A stretch of 58,135 nucleotides of DNA from an uncultured Actinomycetes bacterium. GTDB taxonomy: Bacteria > Actinomycetota > Actinomycetes > Nanopelagicales > Nanopelagicaceae. Both the position numbers and the translations under genes were made by a program. The DNA lies in NCBI GenBank assembly GCA_903836945.1, contig CAILSO010000036.1, positions 1 to 58,135 on the forward strand, written 5' to 3'. Each line of letters starts with the position of its first letter. Position 1 is the first letter of the stretch. Shown one piece after another: positions 12,397 through 28,716 of the stretch. The notes under the pieces were generated by a model. That model was not told where the DNA came from and searched no databases. It was given only the letters and a program-made list of their open reading frames with translations.

Positions 12397-12480
12397 GTCC
12401 GGGTGGCGGAATTGGCAGACGCGCTAGCTTGAGGTGTTAGTTCCCGCAAGGGATTAGGGGTTCAAGTCCCCTCTCGGACA
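12397..12480 (+). tRNA. tRNA-Leu (anticodon GAG)
   Basis: The cloverleaf can be drawn by hand. The acceptor stem is GTCCGGG with CTCGGAC (one G-T pair). The D arm closes GCG/CGC around AATTGGCAGA-type bases. The anticodon stem CTAGC/GTTAG holds the loop TTGAGGT with anticodon GAG at 12431-12433. A long class II variable arm follows (TTCCCGCAAGGGA), then the T arm AGGGG-TTCAAGT-CCCCT and discriminator A. The anticodon reads CUC and CUU. The CCA end is not encoded, so it is added after transcription. Confidence 0.95.
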
Positions 12481-12498
12481 CGTTTGAAAATAGAAACC

Positions 12499-26802: not shown

Positions 26803-27075
26803 TTAAGCAGAAACTTCAGGTGTAACGGGTTCCAAATTTTCAATAGTTAAAAGCCCACCGTTGATTTCACGCAATGCGATAGATAACGGCTTCTCATGGA
26901 CATAAGTCTCGACAAGTGGTCCAACGTATTCAAGAAGACCTTCGCCTAATTGAGAGTAGTAAGCGTTGATTTGACGAGCACGCTTAGCGGCATAAAGCAC
27001 CAAGCTGTATTTGGATCCAGCAGCATCTAGTAATTCATCAATCGGAGGATTAGTTATGCCATCCATTGCTGTCAT
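26803..27075 (-). CDS. rpoZ: RNA polymerase omega subunit
   Basis: The 90-residue omega subunit helps fold and assemble the beta' subunit of RNA polymerase. It shows [29 protein letters not shown] and, near the end, [15 protein letters not shown]. The length is slightly below the usual actinobacterial size. Unlike its neighbours it has a strong Shine-Dalgarno (AAGGGG, 5 bases before ATG) in a 51-base gap after gmk, where TATCTA or TAGATT could act as a -10. rpoZ between gmk and coaBC is the common actinobacterial order. Confidence 0.95.
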
Positions 27076-27126: not shown

Positions 27127-28011
27127 TCAATGCCTCTTGGCAGAGGCCAAGGATAGCAGTTGCTCGGCAACGCCTTCTACCGAGTGATTAACGAGGATAT
27201 GATCAAAATCGCCTGCGGCCGCCATCTCCTCTTCCGCAAGGGCCAATCTGGCCGCTCTGCGCTCTGGCGAATCCGTCCCACGGTTTTCTAATCGATTCAC
27301 AAGCTCTTCCCACGAGGGCGGTGAGATAAAGACTAAAACTGACTCAGGGCTCTTACTTCGAACCTGTCTAGCTCCCGCAATCTCGATTTCCAACAAAACG
27401 TTCTTGCCAAGATTGCGCGCATGTTCGACTGGTTCGCGTGGAGTTCCGTACCGATTACCCGCAAATTCCGCCCATTCCAAAAATTTATCTGCGGCGATCA
27501 TTTGATCAAACTTTTCATCCGTTAGAAAGAAGTAATCAATACCTTCACGCTCGTTCTCGCGCGGTTGCCTTGTTGTTGCCGAAACACTCACCCAGATACT
27601 TGGGTTATCACGAAGATGGTTAGTGATCGTACTTTTGCCAACACCACCAGGTCCACTCATCACAATTAGCGAACCAACTCCTGGCTCAAGTTTGTTCAAA
27701 ATAAACTCTTCTCTAAGTGCTGCGATTTGATTAGGTCCTAGTCCCCCAATTCTACGCCCTTCCGATATCTTCAATTTCTCCATCAATAAGAAAGTTCGAC
27801 GGGTTCCAACTCCGGGCACGGCTGCTAAAAGCTCGCTAACTCGCATCCTTTGAATTCCCTGACGGGGATCGTTTATTGCATCGAAGATGGTTTTTGTTCT
27901 GTTAGCGATATCAATTTTCATCGAAGCCCGATCGCGCCTTGCAGCTATCGCCCTTTGACCGGCTTGGATTCGTTCACTATCGCTCAAGTTTGGCGGAGGA
28001 TTTTTTGGCAT
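27127..28011 (-). CDS. gmk: Fusion of actinobacterial IHF and guanylate kinase
   Basis: The 294-residue protein joins two families usually encoded by adjacent genes. Residues 1-103 match the actinobacterial integration host factor (mIHF/sIHF): basic RQ-type helices (AIAARRDRASMK), then the helix-two-turn-helix VPGVGTRRTFLLMEKLKISE and GRRIGGLGPNQIAAL. Residues 112-294 are guanylate kinase, which makes GDP from GMP: P-loop GPGGVGKST (120-128), TRQPRENEREGIDYFF and FISPPSWEEL. There is no stop codon between them. The domain junction is short (ILNKLEPGVGS). The gene follows pyrF by 12 bases. Confidence 0.93.
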   Translation of the reverse strand: MPKNPPPNLSDSERIQAGQRAIAARRDRASMKIDIANRTKTIFDAINDPRQGIQRMRVSELLAAVPGVGTRRTFLLMEKLKISEGRRIGGLGPNQIAALREEFILNKLEPGVGSLIVMSGPGGVGKSTITNHLRDNPSIWVSVSATTRQPRENEREGIDYFFLTDEKFDQMIAADKFLEWAEFAGNRYGTPREPVEHARNLGKNVLLEIEIAGARQVRSKSPESVLVFISPPSWEELVNRLENRGTDSPERRAARLALAEEEMAAAGDFDHILVNHSVEGVAEQLLSLASAKRH

Positions 28012-28023
28012 TTTTAACCCGAA

Positions 28024-28716
28024 TTAGAGAGATTGTGAAATTTGAGCTGCAACCAACTTCATTTCCTCAAGCGATTTCTTTGCGTGTTCGGTTATCGGTC
28101 GACCAATTACAAGGTAATTTGCTCCTGCGGCAAGTGCCTCCTGCGGCGTCATTACTCGTTTTTGATCTCCGAGATCAGCTCCAGCCGGACGAACACCAGG
28201 CGTTATTAGAATGATATTTGGTCCAACGGCTGCTCTAATTGCATTCACTTCAAAAGGCGAACAAACAATTGAAGTAGCTCCGGCGGCGACCGCAACCTTT
28301 GCTAACCCGACTGCCGTATCAAGTGGAGATTTAGCGAAACCGATTTCAACTACATCATTTGAATCTAACGAGGTCAAAATAGTCACCGCCGTGATCGAGA
28401 TATCGGGATCAACATCAACTGCTGATCGAACCATCGCTCTACCACCACTCGCATGGACCGTTAAAAATTTAGGCTTCAAAAAAGCGACCGATTTGGTGGC
28501 AGCCTTAACTGTATTGGGAATATCGTGCAATTTTAAATCGAGAAAGAGCTCGACTCCGTGCCTGTTCTTTATTTCAAGTAGCCCAGTCGAGCCAAATTTT
28601 AAGAAGAATTCCAGACCGATTTTATAAAAAGCAATACTCTCCTTGGTTGCAGCGACCCAATCATGCGCAGTCTCTAAATTATCAGTATCTAGCGCGAGGA
28701 TAATCTTTTTGCTCAT
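28024..28716 (-). CDS. pyrF: Orotidine 5'-phosphate decarboxylase
   Basis: PyrF converts OMP to UMP, the last step of de novo pyrimidine synthesis. The 230-residue TIM-barrel protein has ILALDTDNLETA, the catalytic LFLDLKLHDIPNTV (Lys-Asp-Lys type array) and the phosphate-binding VTPGVRPAG-like region ITPGVRPAGADLGDQ and YLVIGRPI. It is the E. coli/Bacillus type rather than the longer mycobacterial type. The ATG overlaps the pyrD stop (ATGA). Confidence 0.96.
   Translation of the reverse strand: MSKKIILALDTDNLETAHDWVAATKESIAFYKIGLEFFLKFGSTGLLEIKNRHGVELFLDLKLHDIPNTVKAATKSVAFLKPKFLTVHASGGRAMVRSAVDVDPDISITAVTILTSLDSNDVVEIGFAKSPLDTAVGLAKVAVAAGATSIVCSPFEVNAIRAAVGPNIILITPGVRPAGADLGDQKRVMTPQEALAAGANYLVIGRPITEHAKKSLEEMKLVAAQISQSL

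Follow-up and report, generated by a model that had tools for sequence, protein, structure and literature searches.

A recurrent actinobacterial fusion of integration host factor and guanylate kinase with a putative conserved internal start for the kinase

The window, that is, the whole stretch of 58,135 nucleotides analysed here, encodes an actinobacterial integration host factor (IHF) and a guanylate kinase (Gmk) in one frame, and this IHF-Gmk fusion is recurrent in the phylum. The account that we favour, and consider fairly probable, is that the stop codon of the IHF gene or the frame between the two genes was lost, that the genus of the window (g1) and two further genera of its family (g4 and g5) keep the old gmk start so that the gene would yield both the fusion and a free Gmk, and that elsewhere the fusion would be made alone. 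Below, f1 denotes the family of the window and G000 its genome.

The preliminary description placed the gene correctly at 27127-28011 as one frame of 294 codons, leaving the strand unstated; across this interval the plus strand is riddled with stops, and the single ATG-to-stop frame lies on the minus strand (Table 1). Both NCBIfam profiles scored above their cut-offs, actino_IHF (NF041260) with 82.5 bits against 60 over residues 7-103 and guanyl_kin (TIGR03263) with 219 bits against 160.45 over residues 113-289. The Pfam families agreed, with 61 bits against 27 for the S13-like helix-two-turn-helix H2TH_5 (PF22525, residues 52-103) and 149.5 bits against 25.2 for Guanylate_kin, which bears out the proposal that the two domains share a frame, that both are intact and that the helix-two-turn-helix of IHF is kept. 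A linker of about 8 residues had been proposed, which is close to the roughly 9 residues (104-112) given by the domain borders.

Table 1. Features of the IHF-Gmk locus in the window.
Feature	Positions	Strand	Remarks
IHF-Gmk fusion gene	27127..28011	-	294 codons, ATG start at 28011
Actinobacterial IHF domain, residues 7-103	27703..27993	-	NF041260, 82.5 bits; same span in the genome search
Linker, residues 104-112 (~9 residues)	27676..27702	-	length and sequence differ between genera
Guanylate kinase domain, residues 113-289	27145..27675	-	TIGR03263, 219 bits; fold match to 1s4q/1znw
AGAGAAGAG, codons 100-102, putative weak ribosome-binding site of the internal start	27706..27714	-	
Putative internal start TTG, codon 105	27697..27699	-	TTG/GTG in 26/26 g1 genes
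Predicted second product, free Gmk of 190 residues from TTG105	27127..27699	-	inference
pyrF, upstream neighbour, same direction	28024..28716	-	OMPdecase PF00215
rpoZ (RNA polymerase omega), downstream neighbour, same direction	26803..27075	-	RNA_pol_Rpb6 PF01192

The elements that we take to be the P-loop (GPGGVGKS), SxTTRxPR, YGTP and the lid arginines all fall in invariant columns of a 46-row alignment, so the claim that every kinase motif is retained holds; the invariant kinase columns comprise G120, P121, K126, S142, T146, T147, R148, R151, Y160, E179, Y188, G189, T190, R240, R244 and R255, and Arg25, Arg28 and Arg87 of the IHF domain are almost invariant across the same rows. An AlphaFold2 model of the full fusion chain, computed from 46 aligned fusions, reached a mean pLDDT of 95.0 and a pTM of 0.87, with the IHF helices present and the linker at a pLDDT of about 88 or above. 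Its top fold matches in the PDB were the Mycobacterium tuberculosis Gmk structures 1s4q and 1znw, over about 180 columns (1s4q, E 3.1e-22), and the IHF part found 4itq/6bek and 6tob by sequence. Both domains would be expected to work as in their free relatives, with predicted DNA bending and GMP phosphorylation. The gene order pyrD-pyrF-ihf-gmk-rpoZ-coaBC is found in most loci of f1 whose flanks are covered and is identical for fused and unfused loci. Elsewhere in the window, a tRNA-Leu (gag) at 12397-12481 on the plus strand is its sole Rfam match and its sole tRNA.

The continuity of the frame is not an accident of one assembly. A fusion match was present in 26 of 27 same-genus genomes, the lone exception (G008) being 60% complete, and the junction was read through in frame in all 26; the gene falls on more than one contig in G005, G012 and G015, and one piece still covers the junction. 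The same in-frame junction occurs in single-contig genomes of other genera (for example G041, G037 and G047). An assembly or sequencing error masking a stop codon, which the preliminary description had named as its refutation, might be suspected because the genome of the window is an ~90% complete draft in 56 contigs; we give it practically no weight, since the same-genus matches keep the frame across the junction without exception and thereby rule out such an artefact. Many alignment rows carried an entry '1 TGA' or '1 TAA' that was considered as a junction stop and rejected, the junction DNA being free of any stop; these entries are taken as the gene's own stop met by the tail of the alignment.

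The draft genome of the window contains one Gmk match and one IHF match, and a profile search of G000 found no second IHF above the cut-off, which answers the earlier suggestion to look for a free copy. Among 39 genomes, NF041260 gave exactly one match above the cut-off in 36 and none above it in three; the fusion is therefore the only IHF seen in genomes with that single match. A further weak match to the IHF profile (E 0.001-0.05) occurred in nine genomes, none of the genus of the window, and these matches are taken as other H2TH proteins such as ribosomal S13. HU is encoded by a separate gene in all 15 genomes examined.

The preliminary description had contrasted the fusion with the usual separate genes and advised a survey of relatives. 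The survey does not support a peculiarity of this genome: the fusion is general in the genus and reaches into other families. Among 167 f1 loci, 142 are fused, 23 have the genes apart and 2 are without IHF in the stretch, a share of fused loci that is biased upwards, these loci being drawn from the best-scoring matches listed; six further loci of g6, g7, g8 and g11 are all unfused. Fused genera of f1 are g1, g2, g3, g4, g5, g9, g10, g12, g14 and g16; g7, g11, g13 and g15, together with g6 and g8, are unfused. Named members of f1 include Ca. Planktophila and IMCC26103. Two loci with 51 and 62% identity fall near f1 in records labelled Bifidobacterium breve (L260) and Ca. Fonsibacter lacus (L276), and these records are probably mislabelled or mixed metagenome bins.

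In a class survey of 394 genomes, the fusion was found, among the matches listed, in at least the families f1, f36, f34 and f38. In f36 it is present in 74 of 80 genomes, many of 3-4 Mb; the remainder comprises four with a Gmk without adjoining IHF, one out of frame and one without a match. The four Gmk genes with no detectable adjoining IHF (L331, L332, L333 and L334) belong to G673, G619, G678 and G622, three of about 1.3-1.5 Mb and one of 2.1 Mb, and in G619 and G622 the IHF model gave no match above the cut-off across the whole genome. Family f34 is mixed, with G435, G466, G723 and G725 fused and G482, of the same genus as G723 and G725, unfused, and f38 is fused in G710 and G716. The 80 named loci comprise 26 fused ones, 53 with separate genes (Streptomyces among them) and one lacking IHF; because all 15 named Microbacteriaceae loci are fused, f36 is taken as Microbacteriaceae.

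A FastTree phylogeny of five neighbour proteins, in which several inner branches are weak (support 16, 36 and 39) and from which g6 and g8 were excluded, implies at least three changes of fusion state within f1 and six or seven overall, gains and losses being lumped together; the tree gave seven with L229 scored as unfused, and hand correction for its actual fused state gives six or seven. By this tree the Microbacteriaceae fusion is placed as independent of that in the family of the window, because unfused lineages lie between them.

Unfused relatives suggest a route to the fusion. Where g7 and g11 keep the genes apart, the IHF stop and the gmk start have four bases in common (ATGA) at seven loci and one base (TAATG or TGATG) at four; five g7 loci carry both genes in the same frame, separated by one stop codon with a start directly after it (TAG-ATG in L056, L057, L060 and L061; TAA-GTG in L054). 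The ancestor would have carried adjoining, co-directional IHF and gmk genes, and loss of the IHF stop codon, or of the frame between the genes, would have given a bifunctional protein with IHF at its N-terminus and guanylate kinase at its C-terminus. Because unfused relatives abut or overlap, and the five g7 loci are one stop away from fusion, stop-codon loss is the likely route, and we infer that such a loss or a small frame change produced the fusion. Of the earlier suggestion of stop loss in a shrinking genome, the first part therefore agrees with the likely route, and the second is not supported, given that 74 of 80 f36 genomes, many of them larger, carry the fusion.

Within g1 the junction carries an unusual signature. 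An internal start near codon 112 had been raised as a possibility, which comes close: the conserved start codon is codon 105. This codon is a start codon in all 26 g1 genes (21 TTG, 5 GTG) where codon use predicts 5.8, and codon 102 is GAG in all 26, against a gene-wide GAG share of 46%. Measured over five genes (pyrD, pyrF, the fusion, rpoZ and coaBC), codon 105 tops 149 Leu/Val columns (runner-up 0.61), and the geometry of GAG, six nucleotides and a start at codons 102/105 stands out most strongly among 1212 codon columns (next 0.46 and 0.08), column 105, with the spacing of a ribosome-binding site, having been noticed before it was tested. The median g1 pair agrees at only about 33% of its fourfold-degenerate sites, so shared ancestry does not by itself account for the conservation at codons 105 and 102. 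Pairing with the anti-Shine-Dalgarno is less uniform: 14 of 26 g1 genes have a start at the junction whose pairing reaches -5 kcal/mol or better, and mean pairing upstream of codon 105 ranks 15 of 282.

Two other positions of the gene show start-like features. The runner-up geometry in g1 (0.46) lies at codon 260 of the same gene, where a GAG-spaced ATG occurs in the kinase lid (codons 260-263, about 27223-27234, minus strand; 0.56 in g5), and this geometry is probably a by-product of conserved residues. Near the gene end, codon 288 (about 27148-27150, minus strand) is a Leu/Val codon biased to TTG/GTG (0.84 in g5, 0.61 in g1), and 24 of 30 f36 genes have a paired start codon there.

Comparable starts occur in two other genera of the family. 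In g4, TTG105 or ATG106 is present in all 17 genes, with TTG105 in 8 of 8 genes lacking ATG106 and in 1 of 9 genes carrying it (Fisher 0.0004, without tree correction); on the g4 tree ATG106 changes five times and TTG105 four times, and tree-aware comparison leaves two independent pairs, on starred branches, of which one agrees and one shows no difference, making a sign test powerless. A start at codon 105 or 106 is found in 20 of 25 g5 genes and is missing from the other five. At the junction, 17/17 g4 and 20/25 g5 genes combine a start with pairing as strong as -5 kcal/mol or stronger. By mean pairing in front of codon 105, this site comes first among 282 positions in g5 and third among 273 in g4; the g5 geometry score of 0.64 at codons 102/105 is barely above the 0.56 of codon 260. 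Such paired starts are rare or absent in g2 (5/51), g3 (0/13), g10 (0/4), g9 (0/3) and f36 (2/30). A translational pause site was considered as the cause of the conserved GAG and set aside, initiation being preferred because TTG105 and ATG106 replace each other in g4. Farther downstream, codon 117 of f36 (L191-L220), just before the P-loop, is GTG in 29 of 30 genes against 13.5 expected; GTG117 in f36 and ATG118, also before the P-loop, were rejected as internal starts, as initiation there would be expected to remove the first kinase strand.

These patterns are best accommodated if selection retained the original gmk start at codon 105 or 106 (as TTG, GTG or ATG) in g1, g4 and most of g5, its GAG-containing ribosome-binding site lying in the last IHF helix. 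One gene would then give the full IHF-Gmk and, by internal initiation, Gmk on its own, with about 190 residues. From comparative sequence evidence we conclude that the ancestral start appears to be held by selection in these lineages, and its conservation together with that of GAG suggests that it is in use, so that both IHF-Gmk and free Gmk are probably made. Such a start is not seen in most of g2 and g3 or in f36, and in lineages without it the fusion is probably the sole product.

An alternative is that the gene makes a single IHF-Gmk protein, the stop having been lost neutrally and the GAG and TTG being kept for some other reason or as a remnant. In its favour, the ribosome site of the window itself pairs weakly (-2.9 kcal/mol, with pairing at least as good at 80 of 288 positions), and the fused genes of g2, g3 and f36 mostly lack a paired start at the junction, and a fusion-only state is accordingly viable elsewhere. 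IHF also tolerates a C-terminal partner: in the available text of PMC10028186, IHF is described as essential in mycobacteria, and M. smegmatis strains with msIHF-EGFP or msIHF-mNeonGreen grow like the wild type although msihf is essential, from which it follows, as far as that text goes, that IHF with a C-terminal partner can work. Against it stand the invariance of both start codon and GAG in the 26 g1 genes despite near-saturated synonymous divergence, and the pattern of replacement between TTG105 and ATG106 in g4, both of which are hard to explain without initiation. We regard production of the fusion alone as the less likely outcome, at well under even chances, and retain dual production as the preferred account.

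A different proposal, of which the preliminary description gave a version, concerns what the fusion is for. In some bacteria (p)ppGpp inhibits Gmk, and the fusion might have been selected for bringing to the chromosome a kinase that binds GMP and may respond to alarmones; the nucleotide state would then alter DNA bending, or GDP would be made at the nucleoid. The fusion recurs in separate lineages and is kept through whole genera, as such coupling would lead one to expect, and the predicted pTM of 0.87 and linker pLDDT of about 88 or above would suit a fixed domain arrangement; however, a high pTM is no proof of contact between domains, and fused genera differ widely in how long their linker is and in its sequence, which tells against any conserved coupling through the linker. 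Moreover, four of 80 f36 genomes have a Gmk without IHF alongside, and recurrence needs no advantage because genes that already overlap fuse readily. Selection for coupling is thus improbable in our judgement. Slightly more doubtful still is the extended version of a nucleoid-tethered GMP kinase in which binding of GMP, GDP or alarmone would alter DNA bending and the internal start would set the ratio of tethered to free enzyme; if it were true, chromosome shape and guanine-nucleotide supply would be tuned by one gene.

Residues 7-103 of the fusion belong to the same family (NF041260) as mIHF of Mycobacterium (Rv1388) and sIHF of Streptomyces (SCO1480), with which the IHF part shares the PDB relatives 4itq and 6tob. 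Free IHF has about 105 residues, whereas here it forms the N-terminal third of a 294-residue protein with no stop before gmk. The kinase is a full domain with the fold and nucleotide-binding motifs of Gmk (TIGR03263; M. tuberculosis 1znw/1s4q), and differs in carrying an N-terminal IHF domain and in that it may also be made alone from the internal start. The Microbacteriaceae IHF-Gmk has the same domain order in one frame, but is about 45% identical, has another linker and shows no trace of the conserved internal start (2/30 at -5 kcal/mol). According to the accessible part of one study (PMC6155035), the M. tuberculosis mIHF gene adjoins gmk and rpoZ, as at the fusion locus, and deletion of mihF needed gmk and rpoZ in trans owing to polar effects; on that account the three genes form one expression unit.

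Precedents exist for two products from one frame. AerR reportedly has a single frame that gives two products with a common C-terminus. In the available portions of the respective papers, an internal start yields a short second isoform of M. tuberculosis ClpB (PMC6168691) and of AerR (PMC6199135). The arrangement proposed here from sequence alone is likewise one frame with two products sharing a C-terminus, and differs in that the shorter product would correspond to a complete ancestral protein, namely the enzyme without its fusion partner. No description of an IHF-Gmk fusion was found in the open-access literature, subscription journals lying mostly outside the search. The IHF and Gmk domains and their neighbourhood are already known, the fused state is present in public genomes, and long 'guanylate kinases' must surely be on record in databases; as far as the literature searches go, a conserved internal start inside a fusion is undescribed.

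The fusion represents a natural, recurring case in which the ratio of a nucleoid protein to a nucleotide kinase is fixed, in very abundant freshwater bacteria and in Microbacteriaceae. It allows one to test directly whether IHF functions when an enzyme is attached to its C-terminus, and to test neutral against selected gene fusion in operons. If the internal start is used, it would be a clear case of a fused gene keeping the old inner gene alive.
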